The notes beneath the pieces were generated by a model. That model was not told where the DNA came from. It saw only the letters and a program-made list of their open reading frames with translations, and made no database searches. 52,767 bases of DNA from the IMG/VR virus record IMGVR_UViG_3300009499_000013, positions 1-52,767 of that record; one strand, given 5' to 3'. This stretch comes from a virus. Made by a program: the position numbers and the translations under genes. Positions 11,047 to 31,424 of the stretch are shown piece after piece; position 1 is the stretch's first letter, and every line of letters starts with the position of its first letter.

Positions 11047-14000
11047 CTAGCAACGACTCCACCCACACGAGCTACATGAAACACATCCTTCGCTATAGTG
11101 AAACTTTGTGCCACCACAGCTATCACACTTCTTGACGATGTCAGTCTCTGCACCATCAACGATGTAGCCCTTAAGAACACGTGATAGCACCTTAGCGAAT
11201 GAGAACATATCGCTATCACGGTCGCCCTTCTGCAATTGCTCAACCACCTGCTGTATCGGCGCTCCTTGGCGAAGAGCAAGCGATATCATCCGTGTCATCA
11301 CAGAGTGATTCGGATTATCAAACTGTTCAACGATGTCCTTGATTGTAATATCAGACCCATTGCATATGCGTAGGTCGTATGTCGCGGCCATCGTCTTTCT
11401 TTCGTTCTTGATGATTAGGCCTCTGTCATACTTCTTCGGTATCTCAACGAATCTTGATAAACCGCCGAATATCTCATATGGCTTTTCATCAATCATGCCA
11501 ACTAGTATCGTCCACGCCTCACCCTTGATGTTTGCATGATGAATCTCACATGGAAGCTCTTTCGGCCTTGTCGTCTTTGTCGTCGCTGCAACATCATTTG
11601 TTTTAGCGCTAACGAGAACACCAGCACGGCAACCATCTCGATACACAGTGAAACCCTTACAACCGGTCTTCCATGCACGCATATAGACCTGAGCGACGAC
11701 ATCACGCGTTGTGCTAGCGGGTAGGTTGCACGTCTTGCTGAGGCTATGTTCAATCCAGCGTTGAGCAACTGCTTGAACATCAACAGATGCAACCCAATCA
11801 ACGTCGTTCGACGTCGACATATGATACGGGCTGCTCTTAACATCAGTCAGGCCAGAAACATCTCGCCAATGCTTGAACCCAGGATGAAAAACATCGTACT
11901 CTTGCCACTTGTCGCCCATCGAATCTTCAAAATCAACACGGATACCGACATCATTCTGTGTGAGCTTACGACGACGCACATACTGCAACATGTATGCGGG
12001 TTCAATACCAGACGTCGTCCTAGTCATGAGAGACACAGAGCCAGCAGGAGCAGTCGTTGTGAGACAAATGTTGCGCCGGCCGTATTTCATGAATGCCGCT
12101 CGTGTCTCAGCGTCTGATGCATCTAACAGACGTGAAATGAATTGATGTTTGACCATTCTGCTGACATCACAGATGGGAAATGCACCACGCTCAACAGCTA
12201 GTTGCACAGAGCTCTTGTTGGCTGCGACAGCCAAAGAACGATACAGCTCCTCAATCATGAGGATGCTCTCCTTTGAACCGTATCTGATGTTTAGATATGC
12301 CAATGTATCACCGACACCCGTGAGGCCCAGGCCTGTTCTGCGACCCTTGACACATGCATCCCTAATCTTCTGCCATAGCGCTGTCTCGATTGCTTTGATA
12401 TCATCAGGTTCAGGGTCAGATTCAACCTTCTTGATTATCGCATCGATGTGCTCAATCTCAATGTCGATTAAGTCATCCATCAATCTCTGTGCCTTGACTG
12501 CATGCTCGTTGAACAGCTTCAAGTCGAATGTTGCATCTTCAGTGAATGCATTTCTCACATAAGAAAGAGCATTGACAACGAGCAATCTGCAACTATCATA
12601 AGGACTTAGAACAATTTCACCACAATTTTTTACACACAAACCAGACGCTTGAATGAACTTATCGTCTGGGCTTCCAGATGTAATAACATGATAGTTGTGA
12701 TTATCATCGACAGTAATATTGAACACATCCTCATAACCGAAAAATTCAACACTAACAACCTTGTGGTTATTGATAACCCTGTCTTTAAAAGCAGAAAATC
12801 GCTTGAAACGAAATTCATTAGCAACATGACAGGGTAAGCCATGTTGCTTAGCATAGTTTGTCCATATGCTAACTGTGAGTCGTCCATTTTCTGATAAGGC
12901 TTTTCTTCCGTGCTCTATCAATTCATCATTTGTGACGCCTAAATAACGCCCATTTTTCTCACCTGGATGACTAGCGAAGTTATGTTTTTGTTCAGCAGTC
13001 ATTCTGTGATATGGATTTGCGGCACCGCGCATGCAGTCAGCATGTAATGCTCTATGCTCTTCATGCGTCATTAACTGCAAATTACTGATATTATCATTGG
13101 TGCTATCAAAATCGATATGATGAATTGCGATGTTTTTGGCGTCAACATCTCCATGATAAAACTCATTGATTAATCGATATTGGCGACGATTTCGTTTAGC
13201 TCCTCCAGCCATATCAGCACCAGTATTTGCTACCTGTCGATACCCGTTTGAATTGAATGAATAAAACGGAAAAACACTCATGCCCGCCTTGAGCTTAGAC
13301 AGCTCAACATACTCTAGCGTCTTCAACATTACTTTATGGTCAGGAGTAGCTATCAATGAGCTTCCATCATCAAGAATCAACTTCCAAACCTCTTTCATTT
13401 CTCCAGTTTTTCTAGGATTTCGACCCATTTTTATTTCAACTCGACCCGTCGTAGGATTTGTAGAATAAACGGGAACATCCTGCCCAACATCAGCTAAACT
13501 TTTAATTGAAACAGCATTTCTACCGTCAGCAACAGCTATGAGTGTCTCACCGACGATGCAGGGATTCGTCGAAACAGAACCGAACCCTTCATCTGAAAAT
13601 ATGTCAGCCGGTGTTTCACGCTTGACAGTATCCCAGAACAGAACACCCGGTTCTGCTGCGCTCCATGCTGAGTCAATTATCTTATCCCATATCTGTCGTG
13701 CTTTAACGGTGCGTGTGTAAGTTGGTTCTATTGCGTCAACAGGCCATTGAAGTGTAAAATCGCTATCATCTTCAACGGCTTTCATAAATTCATCTGATAC
13801 ACGAAGAGAGATGTTTGCACCCGTGATTTTTGTTAAGTCTTTCTTGATGTCGATGAACGTCTCGACGTCAGGATGTCTGATGTCAAGAGTAAGCATCAGT
13901 GCGCCGCGGCGGCCACCCTGTGCAACCTCGCGACATGAGTTCGAAAATCTTTGCATGAAAACTGCTATGCCATCAGTTGTTCTAGACGCATTCGACGTGA

Positions 14001-14439
14001 TAAGACCAGCAGGCCTAATTGTTGAGATGTCGAAACCCACACCCCCGCGTCTCTTCATTATCTGAACCTGTTCTTGGTCAGTGTAAAGAATGCCGCCGTA
14101 TGAGTCATACGGCGACTTGATTACAAAACAATTCGACAGGCTTTGTATGCTATAGTCGTTTCCGATTCCAGACATCGGGCTACCCTGTGGAACGATGTAT
14201 CTAAAATCTCGGAGCAGTTCAAATATCTCATCCTCAGACATCGGGTTCGGATACTTCGCCTCAATCCTAGCAAACTCACGTGCCAAACGTCTGTGCATGT
14301 CATCGGGCGTCATCTCAAGTAGTTCATGATTTTCATCACGCAACGCATACTTTTTGATGAACACATCTGCGGCCATCTCATCACCGCCGAAGTACTCAAC
14401 TGATGCAGCTAATGCGTCTTTAAAGGAAACCATCGTCAT
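11047..14439 (-). CDS. nrdJ: Class II (B12-dependent) ribonucleotide reductase NrdJ, interrupted by an intein
   Basis: NrdJ reduces ribonucleotides to deoxyribonucleotides using adenosylcobalamin. The 1,130-residue precursor has the class II pattern: SLSNCFV (redox Cys104), RRGGVGFDIS, and the active-site STNP/CGEI split by an intein at residues 294-605. After the intein come CGEIVLSPYDSC (thiyl-radical Cys606, redox partner Cys617, 11 apart as in the Lactobacillus enzyme) and PAGSVSLMTRTTSGIEP. The C-terminus is a zinc-ribbon tail (CDSCGG, CVSCSSCGWSRC). Spliced length is 818 residues. The ATG at 14439 overlaps the helicase stop (ATGA) and has GAGGATGA just upstream. No NrdA/NrdB pair was seen. 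Confidence 0.93.
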   Translation of the reverse strand: MTMVSFKDALAASVEYFGGDEMAADVFIKKYALRDENHELLEMTPDDMHRRLAREFARIEAKYPNPMSEDEIFELLRDFRYIVPQGSPMSGIGNDYSIQSLSNCFVIKSPYDSYGGILYTDQEQVQIMKRRGGVGFDISTIRPAGLITSNASRTTDGIAVFMQRFSNSCREVAQGGRRGALMLTLDIRHPDVETFIDIKKDLTKITGANISLRVSDEFMKAVEDDSDFTLQWPVDAIEPTYTRTVKARQIWDKIIDSAWSAAEPGVLFWDTVKRETPADIFSDEGFGSVSTNPCIVGETLIAVADGRNAVSIKSLADVGQDVPVYSTNPTTGRVEIKMGRNPRKTGEMKEVWKLILDDGSSLIATPDHKVMLKTLEYVELSKLKAGMSVFPFYSFNSNGYRQVANTGADMAGGAKRNRRQYRLINEFYHGDVDAKNIAIHHIDFDSTNDNISNLQLMTHEEHRALHADCMRGAANPYHRMTAEQKHNFASHPGEKNGRYLGVTNDELIEHGRKALSENGRLTVSIWTNYAKQHGLPCHVANEFRFKRFSAFKDRVINNHKVVSVEFFGYEDVFNITVDDNHNYHVITSGSPDDKFIQASGLCVKNCGEIVLSPYDSCRLLVVNALSYVRNAFTEDATFDLKLFNEHAVKAQRLMDDLIDIEIEHIDAIIKKVESDPEPDDIKAIETALWQKIRDACVKGRRTGLGLTGVGDTLAYLNIRYGSKESILMIEELYRSLAVAANKSSVQLAVERGAFPICDVSRMVKHQFISRLLDASDAETRAAFMKYGRRNICLTTTAPAGSVSLMTRTTSGIEPAYMLQYVRRRKLTQNDVGIRVDFEDSMGDKWQEYDVFHPGFKHWRDVSGLTDVKSSPYHMSTSNDVDWVASVDVQAVAQRWIEHSLSKTCNLPASTTRDVVAQVYMRAWKTGCKGFTVYRDGCRAGVLVSAKTNDVAATTKTTRPKELPCEIHHANIKGEAWTILVGMIDEKPYEIFGGLSRFVEIPKKYDRGLIIKNERKTMAATYDLRICNGSDITIKDIVEQFDNPNHSVMTRMISLALRQGAPIQQVVEQLQKGDRDSDMFSFAKVLSRVLKGYIVDGAETDIVKKCDSCGGTKFHYSEGCVSCSSCGWSRC
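12625..13560 (-). mobile_element. NrdJ intein with HNH homing endonuclease domain
   Basis: The intein spans residues 294-605 (312 aa) of the NrdJ precursor. It begins with Cys (CIVGETLIAVADG, block A). Block B is SSLIATPDHKVM. An HNH-type endonuclease lies in the centre (IAIHHIDFDSTNDNISNLQ, then HEEHRALH). Block F is VFNITVDDNHNYHV and block G is GLCVKN followed by the +1 Cys. It sits between Pro and Cys of the NPCGE active-site motif, so the radical cysteine is also the splicing +1 nucleophile. The penultimate residue is Lys instead of the usual His. All other splice elements look intact, so it is probably active. Confidence 0.92.
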
Positions 14440-15695
14440 TCATCCTCACCAGAGCTTGAACCATTGGCTACCTTGTTGATGCTTCTTAAAGACACCATCC
14501 TGTCTGCTGAGACCTGCTCCCATTTGTCTTTAAGGAGCTGTTTCATTCCTGTGTCTGCACTCATTTGGAAATCCTCTAAATCAACGTTCGCGTCAAGCAC
14601 TTCAATGATTGAGCGTGATGTGTCTATCTTACCAGGAAAAATGATGCCGTCCTTACCGAGTCTGCTTTTTGGAATGAAAATGTTGCAGAGACCCTTCGCC
14701 TTCTGTATCGGTTTCCTAGATAATGAGATGATGAAATCACAAATCATCGCCTTACCATAGCTTTCTGATATCTTGTCTAGGCCGACGACATCAGTGTCAG
14801 AACCATCGCGATTCACCTGACTCGCTGTCCAGATTGGAACATTGAGCTCCATTGCAAGTGTGCGCAGCTCTTCATAAACCAGCTTAAGCTCATGTCGAAG
14901 AGAATCAAACTGCCTAGATGACCTCATGATGTCAGCGTAGTCAATGATGATTACGTCAGGCCTAAATGACTTTGTGATTGCGAGCTTTTCGATGTGCGCC
15001 TTCAGCATCATGATTGTAGCCGTGCTGGTTGGATACTCCTTAATGATTAAACGACCCCAGTTAGACTTGTTCGATTCATAATGCGTTCTGATGAACTCTT
15101 TTTCATCAGGCACATCAGTCGCACTCACATTTGAGAGGTTTGAGTCATATCGGATACCGACCTTCTTCTCAGAAAGCTCGAACGTATAATGAAGAACATT
15201 TCGACCAGACTTCACAGCATTCGCTCCCAACTGAACGAGAAAATGTGAATTATGAGAAAGAATGTCATTCGTGTAAAAGCAATGAGTATCAGCAACTTGT
15301 AAATCAAATAGGGACTCATTTTCAATAACTGTCTCATTCGATTCAACAACAACTGCCGTATAGCCACCCCTAACAACTATTAAATCACCTTTAATAACAT
15401 TTTGTGCATACTTCCATCCGACAGTTGTTAAAACATTATGTTTAAATGCACACTCAAGCGACATTGCACCAAGCATTTCATGCATAACAGTAAGTCGCCA
15501 TATTGGAAGATGCTCTGTTTTTCTGAAACCCTCAACTTGCTTAAAACAATCATTTTTCGTAGAAGCATCATACGATAAAATTTGTATATCGAAATTTGCT
15601 GACACTTCAATGTTTTCACCAGAAATCTTAAGCTCATCAAAGAGCGCACTCAAACTAACATCACGTTCAACAATATTACGGCTGATTGATAGCAT
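14436..15695 (-). CDS. Replicative helicase (gp41/DnaB-type), C-terminal half with IntC of a split intein
   Basis: The protein of about 419 residues joins an N-terminal intein half (149 aa) to the helicase C-terminal half (270 aa). The intein part ends HCFYTNDILSHN, and the extein begins at Ser (SHFLVQLGANAVKSG). This completes the Walker A motif started in the other gene. Walker B is in RPDVIIIDYADIMR, followed by the IWTASQVNRDGS block of RecA-fold helicases. The start is the ATG at 15695, with GAGGTTAAAA directly upstream; a longer reading frame reaches 15773 but would overlap the endonuclease gene more and lacks this signal. Joined exteins total about 482 residues, the normal gp41 size. 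Confidence 0.92.
   Translation of the reverse strand: MLSISRNIVERDVSLSALFDELKISGENIEVSANFDIQILSYDASTKNDCFKQVEGFRKTEHLPIWRLTVMHEMLGAMSLECAFKHNVLTTVGWKYAQNVIKGDLIVVRGGYTAVVVESNETVIENESLFDLQVADTHCFYTNDILSHNSHFLVQLGANAVKSGRNVLHYTFELSEKKVGIRYDSNLSNVSATDVPDEKEFIRTHYESNKSNWGRLIIKEYPTSTATIMMLKAHIEKLAITKSFRPDVIIIDYADIMRSSRQFDSLRHELKLVYEELRTLAMELNVPIWTASQVNRDGSDTDVVGLDKISESYGKAMICDFIISLSRKPIQKAKGLCNIFIPKSRLGKDGIIFPGKIDTSRSIIEVLDANVDLEDFQMSADTGMKQLLKDKWEQVSADRMVSLRSINKVANGSSSGEDE
15249..15695 (-). other. Split intein, C-terminal part (IntC)
   Basis: The segment of 149 residues holds a block-B-like SLECAFKHNVLTTVGW followed by IKGDLIVV, block F (LFDLQVADTHCFYTND) and block G (ILSHN, then Ser+1). Because block B is here and not in the N-terminal half, the break lies between blocks A and B, earlier than in most known split inteins (for example DnaE or gp41-1), and similar to the atypical AceL-TerL and VidaL types. 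The first 35 residues are extra sequence before the FDIQILSYDASTKND strand. Confidence 0.85.
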
Positions 15696-16839
15696 TTTTA
15701 ACCTCAAAAATAACTTCTGACCGACGATAACACCAATCTTTACCACGCACAACGATAACGTTATAGCCAGCATCAGTTAATGCTTTTAGTTTTAAGTTGT
15801 CATGTTCCCACATCTGTTTAGCGGTTAATTTTGTGCGTGGATGAACCCATGTAGGAGAAAATGCGTCTGCATGTGGATGCCAAAATTCTCCCATATATTC
15901 GACGATAACACGTTTAACGGGAAAAACAATATCACAGTTATATGTTAAAACTCTTATATTTGTTTCAATAAGCTCATCACAAAATTGTTCTTTTAAAACG
16001 TTTTGAAGCTCAATTTCACCAGATGAACGATTATAAAATGCTTTAGGCATATTTGCAGCAATCTGTTCTTTAACGTCAGCTGTGTGATGTTTCCCAAACA
16101 TCGGATGCTTTTCATTCGTGCGTCCGTAACATGGCGTTAGTTTAACTGCTTCATCAATAGAAATACCAGCTCTTGTTGCAATTGATACTAATGACATCGG
16201 ATTTTTATCACCCAACATCGCTTCAGAGCGTGCATTAAGAGTTTCAGGTTTATTGTTTTGACAAAGACTAGCTTTAATTTGAAACTCTTTAACACACTCT
16301 TTTGCTTCGTCAAATGAAAACCCTTTTCTTACCCAATGTTTTATTTCTGACGGAAACGAGCGCCAATCAAGAAAGGCAGCTCGTACAGTCGGGTCTTTAA
16401 ATTTTTCTTTAGCATTTTTTGAAGCTTTTTCTCTATCTTCTGTTGCTGTTCTTTGAATAATGCAGTTAGGATATTTTAGCTTATACTCTTTGCCTGTAAT
16501 GTTATGTCTTCTATTAATGTGAGACACAATAGATGAAGCAGTCTCAAATCCACAAATTTTACATACGATTTTATCAGTCCAACAGCGATTTTCTTTAGCT
16601 TCTTTTGCAGCAATGTTTTTTCTATAAACAGAATTATAGTCTCGTCTGTCATCACTCATCTTTTGCTTAACAGCATCAGAAAATCGAAATACAACTTTCG
16701 CTGGATATAAAAGTTTATACTCAGCAATCGTTATGTTGTGTCGCTTAATGATATGTGTTATTAAATTGCTGTCTGCTTCAAATCCACAGATAGCACATGA
16801 TAACGTATCAGACCAGCTCATCATCTTCTCGAATATCAC
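15676..16839 (-). CDS. Free-standing homing endonuclease (Vsr/EDxHD-like) inside the fractured helicase
   Basis: The 387-residue protein begins with two copies of a C2H2 finger unit: CAICGFEADSNLITHIIKRH and a second near residue 95 starting CKICGFETASSIVSH. Each is followed by (I/K)EYKLxYP. The middle has nuclease-associated DNA-binding motifs (GRTNEKHPMFGKHHT). The C-terminus resembles Vsr-like PD-(D/E)xK nucleases (SGEIELQNVL, CDIVFPVKRVIVEYMGEFWH, EHDNLKLKAL). This matches the endonuclease family known from fractured genes with split inteins. The start is a GTG at 16839 with GAGGA nine bases upstream; ATGs at 16824 and 16821 are alternatives. It overlaps IntN by 32 and IntC by 20 bases. 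Confidence 0.87.
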   Translation of the reverse strand: MIFEKMMSWSDTLSCAICGFEADSNLITHIIKRHNITIAEYKLLYPAKVVFRFSDAVKQKMSDDRRDYNSVYRKNIAAKEAKENRCWTDKIVCKICGFETASSIVSHINRRHNITGKEYKLKYPNCIIQRTATEDREKASKNAKEKFKDPTVRAAFLDWRSFPSEIKHWVRKGFSFDEAKECVKEFQIKASLCQNNKPETLNARSEAMLGDKNPMSLVSIATRAGISIDEAVKLTPCYGRTNEKHPMFGKHHTADVKEQIAANMPKAFYNRSSGEIELQNVLKEQFCDELIETNIRVLTYNCDIVFPVKRVIVEYMGEFWHPHADAFSPTWVHPRTKLTAKQMWEHDNLKLKALTDAGYNVIVVRGKDWCYRRSEVIFEVKNAINQP

Positions 16840-17587
16840 TCACAATGATATTTCCTCGTTTTGTCATAACAAACTGCCAAGGATAATATGCTTTTCCATT
16901 AATCAAAACTTGTTCATGTTTAATATGAACAATTGAATTACCACGAGCGCATTTGCCGACGCCAGTGCCGGCCAAGATGCAACCCAGTTCTCCACCACCC
17001 AAGCCACCATTCATCACATCACGTGTGTCAAGATGTGCTAGACCGGTTGCGACAGTCGTTCTGTTCTCTTTAACGAAGCGTGCCTCTGCGTCCTCAAAAA
17101 AATCGTGGCCAGCAGTGTTGGGTGTGCCGACAGTGATTGCTGACTTGATTCGACCGACAATCTCTTCATAACGCTCATTCTTCGTCAAATCGACTGCTTC
17201 TTCAAGAGCATGCTTAAGCGCTTGGTTCTTACAAAAATTTAAAGACCTATCCTTCACCCACGGGAGGTCATTGATGTTTGGATTGCTCTTAAGCCCACCA
17301 AGGAATGAAACGACCTGAGCACACATCACCTCATCGTTTCCCTCACTGAGCTGGTCGCGTGCCATCGTGGCAAGAAGCGTGATTGAAGGAAACGTTTTAT
17401 ACGTCTGATAATGTCTCTGATAGATGTCAAACAGGTATCGAAGGTGTGCAACCTCGAAATACTCAAGCTTAAGAACCTCCATCATCTGCTGCGACCAGGC
17501 ATGGTCTGACAAGAGCGCCTGAATCACTCGTTCTTGGAAAGGACGACCGAACGACTTAAAAGAAACATCACCTTCATCAGCTGACAT
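16808..17587 (-). CDS. Replicative helicase (gp41/DnaB-type), N-terminal half with IntN of a split intein
   Basis: This protein of 259 residues is the helicase N-terminal domain plus linker (212 aa), ending in the first part of Walker A (LGCILAGTGVGK). It is followed directly by the intein start Cys (CARGNSIVHIK). The stop is at 16808. The start is ATG 17587 with GAGG seven bases upstream; an upstream TTG at 17608 is less likely. Protein trans-splicing with the 14436-15695 product would restore GTGVGK-S and an active ring helicase. As encoded, neither half can bind ATP properly, so splicing should be essential if this is the only replicative helicase. Confidence 0.92.
   Translation of the reverse strand: MSADEGDVSFKSFGRPFQERVIQALLSDHAWSQQMMEVLKLEYFEVAHLRYLFDIYQRHYQTYKTFPSITLLATMARDQLSEGNDEVMCAQVVSFLGGLKSNPNINDLPWVKDRSLNFCKNQALKHALEEAVDLTKNERYEEIVGRIKSAITVGTPNTAGHDFFEDAEARFVKENRTTVATGLAHLDTRDVMNGGLGGGELGCILAGTGVGKCARGNSIVHIKHEQVLINGKAYYPWQFVMTKRGNIIVSDIREDDELV
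16811..16951 (-). other. Split intein, N-terminal part (IntN)
   Basis: The 47-residue segment starts with the nucleophile Cys1 (CARGNSIVHIKHEQ) and ends REDDELV before the stop. It holds block A and one or two extra strands but no TxxH block B, which is found in the other half. A short N-terminal half of this kind marks an atypically split intein. Confidence 0.85.
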
Positions 17588-17617
17588 CAATGACCTCGAA
17601 AAAAACAAAAAACGCGT

Positions 17618-18998: not shown

Positions 18999-19223
18999 GT
19001 GATAAAATTTTATAATCTAGATAAGAGACTCTACGACGACTTTATAAAGAACCTCGGGCACAGCCTCTGGTATGACGTTAGTACTAACATCGGCAACAAT
19101 CTTGCGATTAGTCTTAGGGACAGCTTCTGGGTGCATCGAGATCAGAGCATCATGGATGATATTAGTGACAATCTCCGAAACGTCAGAAACATTCATGATT
19201 CTGAAGTGACCAACAATGCGTGA
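18999..19223 (+). CDS. Array gene A: small tetrapeptide-repeat protein
   Basis: First gene of the plus-strand array, 74 residues, from a GTG at 18999. It contains NLDKRLYDDF, similar to the MRDLNEKLEN start of its neighbours, then (N/S)-L-x-x type repeats (NLGHSLWYDVSTNIGNNL, ISLRDSFW). It ends TNNA, with its stop inside ATGCGTGA, so it overlaps the next gene by eight bases as do all members. Function unknown. The GTG start is the weakest point, since no ATG occurs in this open frame. Confidence 0.5.
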   Translation: MIKFYNLDKRLYDDFIKNLGHSLWYDVSTNIGNNLAISLRDSFWVHRDQSIMDDISDNLRNVRNIHDSEVTNNA

Positions 19224-19421
19224 CTTGAACGAGAAACTCGAGAACAGCTCTGGGACAGTCTTGAGCACAGCCTCATGGACAGCCTCAGGGACAGCCTTGG
19301 GAATAGCCTCGGATTCAGTCTTGGGTGCAACCTCAGTGACAGCCTCAAGAACAGTCTTGGAAACAACCTTACACAAACCACACAGAACGAACAGAGCGTT
19401 GAGGAGACCAACGATGCGTGA
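19216..19421 (+). pseudogene. Array gene B1: frameshifted tetrapeptide-repeat gene
   Basis: It starts ATG 19216 (MRDLNEKLEN). After codon 10 the family-like sequence continues in the -1 frame: LWDSLEHSLMDSL and on, through NSLGNNLTQTTQNEQSVEE, ending TNDA at 19421. One C appears to be missing near 19248-19249 (family expects NSLWDSL). In the zero frame the reading continues without stop into gene B2, giving an apparent 136-residue fusion whose first part is a Thr/Ser/Ala-rich out-of-frame product. A sequencing or assembly error is possible. The tetrapeptide repeats, about (S/N)-L-x-(D/N), correspond to 12-base imperfect DNA repeats. Confidence 0.65.
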
Positions 19422-19626
19422 CTTGAACAAGAAATTCGGGAACTGTCTCAGGGACAACCTCTGGGTCAGCATCGCAAACAACCTCGGAAACAGTCTCAGG
19501 GACAGCCTCTGGAACAACAACCTCTGGGACAACAGCTTCGGGCACAGCCTCGGGCACAGCCTCGAGCACAGCCTCGAGCAAACCGCACAGAACGAACAGA
19601 GCGTCAAAGAGACGAACGATGCGTGA
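19414..19626 (+). CDS. Array gene B2: small tetrapeptide-repeat protein
   Basis: A 70-residue protein from the ATG at 19414 (MRDLNKKFGNCLRDNLW). The middle is a leucine-every-four-residues repeat (NNLGNSLRDSLW, FGHSLGHSLEHSLEQ), and the end is TAQNEQSVKETNDA, nearly identical to the end of B1 (TTQNEQSVEETNDA). It overlaps B1 and C by eight bases each (ATGCGTGA). B1 and B2 look like a recent tandem duplication. The period-four pattern suits an amphipathic helix or a solenoid. No known function; the family was seen by eye only. Confidence 0.65.
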   Translation: MRDLNKKFGNCLRDNLWVSIANNLGNSLRDSLWNNNLWDNSFGHSLGHSLEHSLEQTAQNEQSVKETNDA

Positions 19627-19828
19627 CGTGAACAAGAAATTTGAGAAAGTTTTTAGAGATGAAGTTTCACATAACATTTGGCCCGATGTTAAAAACACAC
19701 TCATTAATGCGTTTTTTATTGAGCTTACTTTTGGTCGCAGCGAACACAGTAATCTTGGCATCTGTGATGGTCTCATTGAATGTTTAAGCGACAATCATAA
19801 AAAAGATGATGGAATGTCAAATGCATGA
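19619..19828 (+). CDS. Array gene C: MRDVNKKFE small protein
   Basis: A 69-residue protein starting MRDVNKKFEKVFRDEV and containing VSHNIWPDVKNT. Its last 19 residues (about GLIECLSDNHKKDDGMSNA) are almost the same as the end of the minus-strand gene at 20301-20508, because the DNA encoding them is one arm of an inverted repeat. It has lost most tetrapeptide repeats, so the family is held together by start motif, length and 8-base overlap. Stop TGA lies inside ATGCATGA of gene D. Confidence 0.6.
   Translation: MRDVNKKFEKVFRDEVSHNIWPDVKNTLINAFFIELTFGRSEHSNLGICDGLIECLSDNHKKDDGMSNA
19770..19826 (+). repeat. Left arm of 57-bp inverted repeat
   Basis: Starts GTCTCATTGAATGTTTAAGC and ends CAAATGCAT. 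It matches the reverse complement of 20303-20359 at 56 of 57 positions; the one difference is C at 19789 (T in the other arm). It encodes the C-terminus of array gene C and includes the start of gene D (ATGCAT). Confidence 0.9.
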
Positions 19829-20024
19829 CGTGAATGATAAATTTGAGATTGAATTAATTGAAGCCACTAGTAGTTTTGTAAATGTGAATTTGTTCGAACG
19901 CAACAGTTTTAAACACATCTACATCTATAGTAATTTTGAACATTTTTATAAACTTGGTTTAGACATAGAAATCAACAAAAAAATTAACAAGATAGCGAAA
20001 AGAGATGAGAACACAGATGAGTGA
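19821..20024 (+). CDS. Array gene D: MHDVNDKFE small protein
   Basis: From the ATG at 19821 (MHDVNDKFEIELIEATSS) the protein has 67 residues, followed by an AT-rich region with IYIYSNFEHFYKLGLDIE. It starts eight bases inside gene C and ends eight bases inside gene E. An earlier in-frame ATG at 19806 is less likely because it breaks the constant 8-base overlap. The EIELIEA start resembles gene H on the other strand (EFEISLIPN). It lies inside the segment bounded by the inverted repeat. Confidence 0.55.
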   Translation: MHDVNDKFEIELIEATSSFVNVNLFERNSFKHIYIYSNFEHFYKLGLDIEINKKINKIAKRDENTDE

Positions 20025-25873: not shown

Positions 25874-26890
25874 TTAGATTTCAGTCATTTTGTCGCTAAA
25901 AAGCCTAACGACCAGCTGTTTTTCATTACCACTCTTCACTACTTTTTTCCACTCTTTGTCTGTTAATCTTACCAACTTTTTTCCCATTTGTTTAAACCAC
26001 ATGCATTGTTTAGCATCACGTAGCTTCGTTCCCAAAATTACTGCGTCTCTTCTATTATTTGACACATGAAGTTCATCAACTGTCTTGTCATAACCATGCC
26101 AGTAAACGCCGTCGAACTGAACGAATGTATCAATCAACGGCACATAAAAATCAATTGCCCAACCATTGATGACGACCTGTCGTTCAACGTTTTCAAAGAT
26201 AGATGAGAGCACATCAAAAAATGAATCTTCTGTCTTAGAGCGACCGAAACTGCCATTCTTTTTCATTGTCGCGTGTCGTTTTTCAACTGCGGCGCTCCAA
26301 TCAATCTGATTTTTTATGAATGAAGACTGCATCGGCCAGTCAACGCCATAAACGCTCTGACACGTCGCTCTTGCACGAATATTATATTCAGCGCTTTGTG
26401 CATAATGCGACACACCGAAACGAGTGATGCATGTTTCTCTAATCTTTGATTTGATGACGTCAGACTGAAATGGATGCTCAACACCGTAGCGACTGATTGA
26501 TGTTGCTTTTACTTTGTCTTTATGTTCTGGTAGTTGAGATGCATTTGATAAACCTGTCGCTTCTTTGAAGCGTAATTGCATTAGTTCGTGGCTTAATAAT
26601 CCAAATTTTTCTTTTTTTGTCTTATTCTGTTTAGCAATAACATCAGCACACTGAGTGGGATAATCGACACCTCGGCGCTTAATGTTTGTTTGTCTTATCT
26701 GTTCAGATAGGACTTTTTTCTTTTGCTGCCCTAAACGATAACAGCTTCTACTACAAAAGTGTATATTTTTATTCCGTGCTTTAAATGAACTTTCGAAAAA
26801 AACTCCACATTCATCACATCGACATACACACACTCTAGAGATATTTGCTCTTGATGAACGCTTAAGCTGTTTAATGAAGACTAGCGCCAC
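25874..26890 (-). CDS. Free-standing homing endonuclease-like protein upstream of gp32
   Basis: The 338-residue protein starts with a Cys knuckle pair (CRCDECGVFF, HFCSRSCYRLG). It then carries repeated (R/K)xG(V)xxPxQ units: KRRGVDYPTQC, SRYGVEHPFQS, TRFGVSHYAQS and SVYGVDWPMQS, a nuclease-associated DNA-binding repeat. The C-terminus looks like a Vsr/PD-(D/E)xK nuclease: TEDSFFDVL, GWAIDFYVPLI, FVQFDGVYWHG and a final LTDKEW. It starts with GTG 26890 without a clear ribosome site, 4 bases after a terminator-like hairpin, and ends 11 bases before gp32. It was probably inserted as a mobile gene and may spread by cutting gp32 alleles of other phages (inference). Confidence 0.8.
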   Translation of the reverse strand: MALVFIKQLKRSSRANISRVCVCRCDECGVFFESSFKARNKNIHFCSRSCYRLGQQKKKVLSEQIRQTNIKRRGVDYPTQCADVIAKQNKTKKEKFGLLSHELMQLRFKEATGLSNASQLPEHKDKVKATSISRYGVEHPFQSDVIKSKIRETCITRFGVSHYAQSAEYNIRARATCQSVYGVDWPMQSSFIKNQIDWSAAVEKRHATMKKNGSFGRSKTEDSFFDVLSSIFENVERQVVINGWAIDFYVPLIDTFVQFDGVYWHGYDKTVDELHVSNNRRDAVILGTKLRDAKQCMWFKQMGKKLVRLTDKEWKKVVKSGNEKQLVVRLFSDKMTEI

Positions 26891-29563: not shown

Positions 29564-30223
29564 TTAAAGCTTCGAAGGGGCGGCATCGAACAACGACGTT
29601 CGCATCTTTTCACACTGCGTCGACCATCTATCTGCCCAATGAACAATCAACGCAAGTGATGGCTCTTTCATACCGTATTCTCGATTACCCTCAGCATACA
29701 TCCCATCATTCAAGAGCACTGAGAGATATTCATCCTCCGACAACTTCACGCCAAATTGGCTCATCGTGAACAGACCAAGCTGTGAGTTTGGCATGCGGAT
29801 TGAATCATTCTTGCGATACATCTGACCCTGCTTGTTATGCCACTGGCTGTCTTGCATGACGTAGTAATCAGCGTCAAGCGTACCAACCTTACCCCAATCA
29901 TGAAGTGCAGCAGCGATGATGATGCTATCCTTCGATGACTTCACATTAAGAGCCGCCGAGATATTGATTGCAGTCCTTAAGACTCTTAATGAGTGGTCGA
30001 TGAACCCACCCGGAAATGCATTATGAAACTCAATCCGCGTCGACGCTGGAGCAATGCACGCCCTTTCACCGAAATGATTGAGCATCTCCTTCAGCTGTGG
30101 AGCCCTTGCACCAGTCTGCTCAAGCAATCCGTTGAATGAATCCCAGTTTTCTTTGATTTTTTGAAAATGCTCTTCACTCTTCCATGTTGCCTTTATTTTC
30201 GATATTTCTGAATCATCAAACAT
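29564..30223 (-). CDS. HD-domain phosphohydrolase
   Basis: The 219-residue protein has the HD metal-binding pattern: FHNAFPGGFIDHSLRVLR (His at about 67 and 76), AAALHDWGKVG (His-Asp pair), and later HWADRWST as the last Asp. HD enzymes act on phosphate esters of nucleotides, including dNTPs and second messengers. It overlaps the polymerase stop by eight bases, so a role in nucleotide handling at replication is likely; substrate not predictable. Similar HD proteins are frequent in large phages. Confidence 0.82.
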   Translation of the reverse strand: MFDDSEISKIKATWKSEEHFQKIKENWDSFNGLLEQTGARAPQLKEMLNHFGERACIAPASTRIEFHNAFPGGFIDHSLRVLRTAINISAALNVKSSKDSIIIAAALHDWGKVGTLDADYYVMQDSQWHNKQGQMYRKNDSIRMPNSQLGLFTMSQFGVKLSEDEYLSVLLNDGMYAEGNREYGMKEPSLALIVHWADRWSTQCEKMRTSLFDAAPSKL

Positions 30224-31424
30224 CTATAAACTCCACCCTGACTGGGAATGATGCATCAAACCCCTTGATGCTTTCACATGAACGTGCTACATCATCAATG
30301 TATCCAACGAAATCAGGATGGATATCAATCATGAGTGCGTCATGTATTATGAACAACGGATGCATTAACATACAGCGCTCTTTGATGAATGCAATCGCTT
30401 TGCTGAAACCCAGCACCGCGGCGTCTGACGCTGTTGATTGTGTGTAATAATTGATTAGCTTTTTTGCGTTTGATACAAAGATTGGTCTGCCGTATCCGTT
30501 TTTTATCATTCCATCATGCGCAGATGCAGTTATCGACCGCAGCAGTCCATCGATGTTGAGATATTCTGCAATGAGTTGCGTTGCTAGTGATAGCATGGGT
30601 TCAGACAGGCCAGTCATGTGTCCAATCGTCTTTTTTGATGCACCGTATAGTAGCGATATCGTGGCGATTTTTGCCTGTTCACGTGTAATAATACCCACGA
30701 CATCGTCTGACACGTGTGCATACACATCTGTGTGGGGTATCCTATTCGTTGAAAGCATTGCAACACGTGCCTCGAGTGAGCGATAGTCTATAAGCGCTAT
30801 GCGACCGCCAACGTATCTAGATTTTAGAGCACCGCGATACCGCTTTGAAAGCGTAAGCATCCTCGGGCCAGATGTGATTGTCAGGCGACCCGTCACCGTT
30901 GAAAGCTGGTCATACGTCGGTACTTTCGCATATCCATCAGCATCAGGCCTGAGTGTCTCTAGTGCAGCCCGATTTGTGTGGTTGGCTTCATTGCTGATGA
31001 ATGATTCAAGCCTGTCGATGTCGATGCAAGCATGCTCTAATGCTCCCAATGTCTCTCTAATGCATTGAAACACGTCAGTATAGTATGTCATATGCTCTGA
31101 GCTCAGAGTTCTTGTGATGTCATCTAGAAGCCCAGACATGAATGAGTCAAACACGCTTTTTGGTAATGCAGACCGCCAACGAATGGGCACGCCCGGAGCT
31201 AGCATGTCATACGCATCCTTGAACTGCTTCGGTGGAGACGTTCTGATGGGTGTTCCACCGAGTGATGCCAATGCGTCAATGCTCATCAATGCATTTGTGT
31301 CGCCGACGACCCATGTGCTCTTCGATGGCACACCATCGCATATCCGATATTTCATCGTGTCTGTGTCATAAAGCACATCAAGCTTTTCACCCAACACATC
31401 TCTTAATATGCACACAGAAACCAC
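30216..31424 (-). CDS. Minimal family A DNA polymerase (PolA)
   Basis: The 402-residue protein has the Pol I polymerase core without a 3'-5' exonuclease domain. Visible are STVTGRLTITSGPRML, motif A LIDYRSLEARVAML (Asp213), motif B R248-x3-K252-x7-Y260-G261, the NYYTQSTASDAA block, and motif C IIHDALMID (Asp362). The residue matching Klenow Phe762 is Ile256, and the Glu after HD in motif C is Ala363. It is far shorter than T7 (704) or E. coli (928) enzymes. The start is GTG 31424 without a clear ribosome site; later GTGs are in frame. It faces a divergent plus-strand gene. Confidence 0.88.
   Translation of the reverse strand: MVSVCILRDVLGEKLDVLYDTDTMKYRICDGVPSKSTWVVGDTNALMSIDALASLGGTPIRTSPPKQFKDAYDMLAPGVPIRWRSALPKSVFDSFMSGLLDDITRTLSSEHMTYYTDVFQCIRETLGALEHACIDIDRLESFISNEANHTNRAALETLRPDADGYAKVPTYDQLSTVTGRLTITSGPRMLTLSKRYRGALKSRYVGGRIALIDYRSLEARVAMLSTNRIPHTDVYAHVSDDVVGIITREQAKIATISLLYGASKKTIGHMTGLSEPMLSLATQLIAEYLNIDGLLRSITASAHDGMIKNGYGRPIFVSNAKKLINYYTQSTASDAAVLGFSKAIAFIKERCMLMHPLFIIHDALMIDIHPDFVGYIDDVARSCESIKGFDASFPVRVEFIDV

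Follow-up and report, generated by a model that had tools for sequence, protein, structure and literature searches.

The window analyzed here, the 52,767 bases of the IMG/VR virus record IMGVR_UViG_3300009499_000013 (G000), harbors three overlapping minus-strand open reading frames (ORFs) at positions 17587-14436, corresponding to the N-half of a replicative helicase, an endonuclease, and the helicase C-half. The helicase parts (exteins extN and extC) adjoin the N- and C-terminal parts of an intein (IntN and IntC, respectively), and the best reading of the locus, which the evidence below supports, is a fractured helicase gene with a split intein and an inner homing-endonuclease gene. Loci gathered in the course of the analysis are given L-numbers. 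The features of the locus are as follows.

16808..17587, minus strand: helicase N-half gene, comprising extN (212 amino acids (aa), ATG 17587), IntN, and a stop codon; matches phrog_19, DnaB-like helicase (E 8e-19)
16811..16951, minus strand: IntN, 47 aa, beginning with Cys1 (CARGNS...DDELV); exactly 47 aa plus stop in 19 of 19 family loci
16910..16951, minus strand: IntN core, residues 1-14, with block A and strands β1-β2; aligns with CLSYNSYIHVKINE, the first residues of the contiguous L172 intein
16811..16909, minus strand: IntN tail, residues 15-47, a mini-domain with the consensus INGxxYKPWDxIxTKRGxIFARDVxxxDEL; conserved protein with variable third codon positions
15676..16821, minus strand: homing endonuclease gene with two zinc fingers, NUMOD3, and a Vsr/EDxHD-type nuclease (NUMOD3, 1.2e-5; ROS_MUCR, 1.3e-5)
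16504..16797, minus strand: the two endonuclease zinc fingers (16738-16797 and 16504-16563), both C-x2-C...H-x4-H
15733..16017, minus strand: nuclease domain with invariant E275, D303, E314, H321, D347, and W369 (numbered from GTG 16839) in an alignment of 11 relatives
14436..15695, minus strand: helicase C-half gene, comprising IntC and extC (270 aa); matches DnaB_C (3.4e-13) and phrog_19 (9e-49)
15249..15695, minus strand: IntC, 149 aa, ending in LSHN followed by Ser+1; matches PF14890 and aligns with 20 other inteins
15246..15251, minus strand: predicted C-terminal splice junction, Asn149/Ser+1, where Ser+1 is the Walker A Ser; 55 uninterrupted homologues are gapless here

Each helicase half has its own translation signals. 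The N-half runs from ATG 17587, six nucleotides (nt) behind the Shine-Dalgarno sequence GAGG at 17594-17597, to a stop codon at 16808-16810, and the C-half runs from ATG 15695, again six nt behind a GAGG (15702-15705), to a stop at 14436-14438. The endonuclease ORF, counted from GTG 16839, is open over 15676-16839, and its likelier start is ATG 16821 (or 16824), at an offset where several relatives also have an ATG; counted from ATG 16821, the gene has 14 nt in common with the N-half and overlaps the C-half ATG by 20 nt. A second record, L003, is 100% identical to the window over 11,335 bases and is probably the same virus. The identical layout recurs in 18 other loci with pairwise IntN identities of 30 to 83%, so it is neither a chance arrangement nor an assembly artefact, and the locus anatomy is confirmed as real.

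The host protein is a gp41/DnaB-type replicative helicase with a DnaB_C domain that includes Walker A (Pfam and phrog_19), and the break falls exactly inside Walker A, GTGVGK|S, between the catalytic Lys and Ser, such that this motif is whole only after the two halves are spliced. The N-half shares 43 to 48% identity with uninterrupted homologues, and the C part ≈53 to 63% with 55 such homologues from IMG/VR. In 55 of the 55 uninterrupted homologues found, the exteins abut between K and S with zero gap, and the extein join is therefore exact to the residue. The predicted spliced product is 212 + 270 = 482 aa, to be compared with stop-to-stop ORFs of roughly 470 to 510 aa in complete uninterrupted homologues. 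These results agree with a first-pass annotation made by a model from the letters and ORFs alone, which had placed the break at GTGVGK/S, described a 47-residue IntN starting with Cys and a 149-residue IntC ending in LSHN-Ser, expected a trans-spliced protein of about 482 aa as the normal length, and pointed out that the unspliced halves lack an intact Walker A. It had also asked for a search for uninterrupted alleles, which returned the 55 homologues, and named a second intact helicase, coupled with a lack of splicing in vitro, as a finding that would speak against it. No second DnaB-type helicase was found in the 52.8-kb window record or in the 161.9-kb record of L146 (G006), although either record may be incomplete.

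The intein halves carry the motifs of a class 1 intein. IntC contains N2 (DVSLSALFDEL), the block-B His, N4, F, and G (LSHN), and matches gp41-1 (5.7e-5) and NrdJ-1 (1.5e-4) in direct sequence comparison; in profile comparison with solved inteins it matches gp41-1 (1e-14), VidaL (2e-11), and NrdJ-1 (2e-9). An alignment of 21 inteins shows no variation at the block-B His, at the F-block Asp and His, or in the terminal S-H-N; Cys1 is invariant in 20 sequences, and Ser+1 across the 19 family loci. All class 1 residues (Cys1, block-B His, penultimate His, terminal Asn, and Ser+1) are thus present. Natural early breaks are described either after β2 (S1: VidaL and PolB16) or after helix 1 (S2: AceL-TerL and GOS-TerL) (PMC13014065). 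The intein is not of the canonical (S0) type, as the invariant block-B His lies in IntC rather than in IntN, and it is not of the S2 type, as the N2 motif is found in IntC rather than in IntN. The N2 strand-helix DVSLSALFDEL stands in IntC as in VidaL, and the break is therefore of the S1 type, after β2. In length, IntN departs from the two described S1 examples (≈15 to 16 aa), with 47 aa in all 19 loci, and it exceeds the 15 to 37 aa given for IntN of natural early-split inteins (PMC13014065) because of a conserved tail of 33 to 35 aa, on which the first-pass annotation had not remarked. The split between blocks A and B that the first-pass annotation had proposed is upheld, whereas its joint assignment to an AceL-TerL/VidaL class holds only in part: the position is that of VidaL and PolB16, not that of AceL-TerL. 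The contiguous intein of L172, an Izimaplasma metagenome-assembled genome (MAG) contig, shares the P-loop site with the window and begins CLSYNSYIHVKINEIVEKVKIGDFY; this intein is covered by IntN residues 1-14 together with IntC from about its eighth residue.

Structure prediction was carried out on the relative L122, in which IntN and IntC share one frame and are parted by a single TGA. For folding, this TGA was read as Trp, with a 24-residue linker, and alignment A7 was used; two MAFFT alignments that mixed bare IntN and IntC rows (A3 and A6) misaligned the halves and were set aside. The AlphaFold2 model, with a predicted local distance difference test (pLDDT) score of 86 and a predicted template modeling score of 0.78, has low confidence in the linker only, and predicts that the L122 IntN-IntC pair builds one Hint fold. 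The PDB matches listed by Foldseek are inteins and related Hint domains, with 133 columns superimposing on VidaL (6vgv) at 2.5 Å, and the viral matches are intein-bearing terminases, helicases, and polymerases. The single Hint fold anticipated for the IntN-IntC pair is thus predicted for a relative and not for the window's own pair.

In each of the 19 loci, 18 from other IMG/VR records plus the window, a homologous split intein interrupts this helicase, always at one and the same codon. The family was opened with a C-side pattern for the intein end at the helicase site, followed by IntN and IntC alignment searches; the count leaves out the near-copies L130 and L143, the contig-edge N-halves L168-L170, and the distant L140. 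Scans for close relatives that used IntC or the endonuclease alone recovered only the same virus, and a scan for the pattern GTGVGKC recovered the window as its sole helicase, missing the family because it fixes GTG where most relatives read otherwise. IntN had no match among named phages, and a scan of a genome collection yielded mainly distant inteins in other genes, plus the contiguous relative L172. Across the family, IntN identity averages 50%, and IntN is followed after residue 47 by TGA (12 loci), TAA (6), or TAG (1); a fixed stop position with a changing stop identity favors true termination over recoding.

The endonuclease has sequence features consistent with a Vsr/EDxHD-type enzyme with conserved acidic and His residues. 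Pfam returns NUMOD3, a Ros-type finger, and weak Vsr and MTES matches, the NCBIfam Vsr match is 4.8e-4, and with a profile built from 11 relatives, Vsr 1cw0 is hit at 5.6e-7 and 3r3p, a mobile intron protein, at 1.7e-3. Both zinc fingers noted by the first-pass annotation are visible, the second (C93, C96, H107, and H112) being invariant in the 11 relatives, and the overlap of a Vsr-like gene with both helicase halves is likewise as it had described. Relatives of the endonuclease are found in the Aes123 PolB fracture (E 3e-6) and, in Klebsiella phage KP13-7, in a PolB fracture that is not annotated as such. Within the family, the endonuclease is intact, in the sense of a single open frame that matches the greater part of the profile, in the window and nine others (L120/L132, L128, L129, L131, L134, L137, L142, L145, and L146). 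It carries a frameshift in L136, survives as a deletion remnant in five (L117, L118, L121, L144, and L149), and is unrecognizable in three (L116, L122, and L135). A recent loss is shown by L117 (deleted), which is closely related to L120/L132 (intact). The split is kept in all sampled loci, whatever the state of the endonuclease, and the missing re-fusion is an observation on these loci only, since IntN-based searches are blind to some outcomes. This natural series, from endonuclease-bearing to endonuclease-less with the break persisting, bears on how split inteins become fixed.

Selection and phylogeny were examined across the same loci. The mean ratios of nonsynonymous to synonymous differences (pN/pS) are all below one (IntN core, 0.50; IntN tail, 0.39; IntC, 0.52; extN, 0.33), and in the endonuclease-less pair L122/L135, IntC has pN of 0.29 and pS of 0.83, so purifying selection persists without the endonuclease. 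A tree of the exteins places the fractured L118 within the uninterrupted helicases and makes L017, also uninterrupted, the partner of L146; it requires at least three changes between the fractured and uninterrupted states. Furthermore, L129 and L131 group by extein with L136, L137, and L142 (bootstrap 100/100) but by intein with L121, L117, L144, and others (100/100). This conflict fits an intein that moved horizontally, or flanks that recombined, and is not alone proof of homing.

Taken together, we consider it very probable that the locus is a fractured gene in which a mobile S1-split intein occupies the P-loop codons of a phage gp41/DnaB-type helicase, a zinc-finger/Vsr-type homing endonuclease is nested between the halves, and the halves are trans-spliced. 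The three overlapping genes would be translated separately, each helicase half from its own ribosome site; IntN residues 1-14 would complete the IntC Hint fold as β1-β2, perhaps aided by the tail; and in class 1 trans-splicing, Cys1 would accept the N-extein, Ser+1 would attack, and Asn149 would cyclize with the help of His148, restoring GTGVGKS and the 482-aa helicase. In co-infected cells, the endonuclease would cut uninterrupted helicase alleles, and repair would copy the whole cassette. The most likely course is class 1 trans-splicing that restores Walker A, in a cassette that the endonuclease spreads or once spread. As the P-loop is unmade before splicing, helicase activity must await trans-splicing, and this wait is a possible timing control of the replicative helicase.

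An arrangement in which the two helicase halves act as separate chains without splicing would suit their separate ORFs, and working unspliced genes split by endonucleases are known, among them a phage ribonucleotide reductase whose halves are separate chains, cited in PMC10448857. Set against this, the break divides Walker A midway, parting the catalytic Lys from the Ser, and the intein motifs on both flanks, Cys1, the block-B His, HN, and Ser+1, are kept in 19 loci, including those that lack the endonuclease, which makes an unspliced arrangement highly improbable. That the gene is instead decaying, broken beyond use while another helicase substitutes, draws on the possible incompleteness of the record and is barely credible in view of the purifying selection on exteins and intein, the absence of a second DnaB-type helicase among the genes of G000 and G006, and the ribosome site that each half retains. 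Nor do we see much room for translation through the endonuclease region into a single polypeptide, by stop readthrough or frameshifting, with later splicing in cis: the shared IntN and IntC frame of L122, with one TGA between, would allow it, but the stop stands at IntN codon 48 in 19 of 19 loci as TGA, TAA, or TAG, the two frames differ in most loci, and the window IntC has its own ATG with a Shine-Dalgarno sequence.

Several points nevertheless weigh against the trans-spliced, mobile fractured gene. Splicing, the cleavage site, homing, and the role of the tail are all features that we infer. The block-B Thr is replaced by Ala in the window intein, the window IntN and IntC lie on a long branch in the trees, where the joins of long branches are unsure, and pS is close to saturation in most pairs. 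The Hint fold is predicted for L122 rather than for the window pair, and the window and L146 records may be fragments, with a second helicase possibly encoded elsewhere. Finally, the relative frequencies of fractured and uninterrupted loci are meaningless, as the two groups were gathered by different searches.

The IntN tail has no counterpart in the contiguous L172 intein (33 residues), and neither Pfam nor PDB yielded a sequence relative of it; among the loci gathered, it is present solely in the N-halves of these fractured helicases. Conservation by codon position is 0.76, 0.79, and 0.61 for positions 1, 2, and 3, Trp25, Thr30, Arg32, Gly33, and Asp44 are invariant in 19 of 19 loci, and the loci that have lost the endonuclease (L116, L122, and L135) keep the tail at its whole length. 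The tail closes with TxRGxIFARDVxxxDELV, which is similar to the block-B/N4 stretch of IntC (hhalign P 0.0016, with 0.18 to 0.71 for five column shuffles). Folded alone, the IntN tail is predicted to form a small β unit (pLDDT ≈79 to 88, with residues 1-14 lower), and its best Foldseek matches are inteins, 26 columns at 0.7 Å with E ≈2, a structural match that is suggestive only. One tentative possibility, which we hold with more doubt than conviction, is that the tail is a spare Hint half-module, a degenerate block-B/N4 repeat, that would dock the short IntN core onto IntC, an assembly route undescribed for early-split inteins that may help fix the split after endonuclease loss. That the 33- to 35-aa tail is retained not for its protein but for a function of the DNA, as an endonuclease target, a promoter, or a gene overlap, gains something from the overlap of the endonuclease start with the last tail codons, but is unlikely given the greater conservation of codon positions 1 and 2, the pN/pS of 0.39, the full length in the endonuclease-less loci, and the five invariant residues. 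A role of the tail as overlap filler was rejected on the same protein-level conservation, pN/pS, and integrity where the endonuclease is gone. The 33 extra IntN residues pose a ready-made test as to the reason for keeping them.

Fractured genes with split inteins and Vsr-like endonucleases were reportedly described by Dassa et al. 2009. The locus resembles these in having the host gene in two ORFs with intein halves, an endonuclease between them, and short overlaps; the Dassa-type examples gp41, NrdJ, and IMPDH are said to have a canonical break with block B in IntN, whereas block B of the window is in IntC. gp41-1 shares by name a gp41-type helicase host and is the top IntC profile match, but has a canonical break, and its insertion site probably differs from that of the window. 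The Aes123 PolB1 split intein is likewise a fractured gene with a related VSR endonuclease, but it has a canonical break with block B in IntN and a DNA polymerase host. VidaL shares the break after β2 and the N2 strand-helix in IntC, and is a tight structural match to the L122 model; its IntN is 16 aa (PMC13014065), compared with 47 aa and a conserved tail in the window. PolB16 OarG (PMC10189870) also has an S1-type break near the N-terminal end, but a Ser1, cysteine-independent chemistry, a DNA polymerase host, and a short IntN of 15 aa. AceL-TerL, GOS-TerL, and the TerL of Yersinia phage phiR1-RT share a short IntN and block B in IntC, and phiR1-RT (g166/g167/g168) has the same three overlapping genes, but in all of these the break is of the S2 type, after helix 1, with the N2 motif in IntN and a terminase as host. 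L172 has a homologous intein at the same P-loop site of a DnaB-type helicase, but this intein is not split and lacks the IntN tail. The fractured-gene architecture and the S1 break are therefore already known; within the open-access literature and as far as our tools reach, the family at this site, the invariant 47-aa IntN with its conserved tail, and the endonuclease-decay series are new. Natural early-split inteins, useful for protein labeling, are few (VidaL, PolB16, AceL-TerL, and GOS-TerL are those named in that literature), and the family contributes 19 early-split loci at a single site.

Other inteins and fractured genes were encountered. Right behind the contiguous helicase intein gene of L172 lies a gene (L172:3020-4255) with repeated zinc-ribbon-like units and a Vsr-like end. 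A DnaB-type helicase of a Clostridia MAG contig (L180:2888-4819) is also fractured at the GK/S site; it is of the S2 type, the N-half holding an N2-like motif, and offers no space for an endonuclease. In L122 (130-1438), a RecA/UvsX C-half starts with IntC, with an endonuclease match upstream, so that this locus possibly carries a second fractured gene beside the helicase. Three "hypothetical proteins" of Klebsiella phage KP13-7 (L108:843-5606) correspond to the IntN-bearing N-half of a PolB, an endonuclease, and the IntC-bearing C-half. The terminase large subunit of L181 (3267-5945) is apparently divided by two split inteins into three ORFs (N + IntN1, IntC1 + middle + IntN2, and IntC2 + C) with no endonuclease between, and L173 looks like L181 for the last two pieces. 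Terminase genes in L156, L157, and L161 and an AAA ATPase gene in L174 start with IntC behind an endonuclease of the same kind, the inteins of L157 and L161 ending in LSLN/T instead of LSHN.

In the window itself, the next gene (11047-14439, minus strand), whose ATG overlaps the helicase stop, encodes an NrdJ-type ribonucleotide reductase with an uninterrupted intein that contains an HNH domain (approximately residues 294-587); adjacent genes therefore carry inteins that are built differently. At 19202-19850, 12-nt direct repeats form arrays inside longer repeats, the latter with a spacing of ≈200 nt. A free-standing homing endonuclease (25874-26890, minus strand; phrog_3339, 3e-20) adjoins a single-strand binding protein gene. 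Finally, a 402-aa ORF at 30216-31424 (minus strand) has a match to a DNA polymerase family of 1445 positions that is confined to positions 963-1200, and the DNA polymerase of the window may be in pieces as well.

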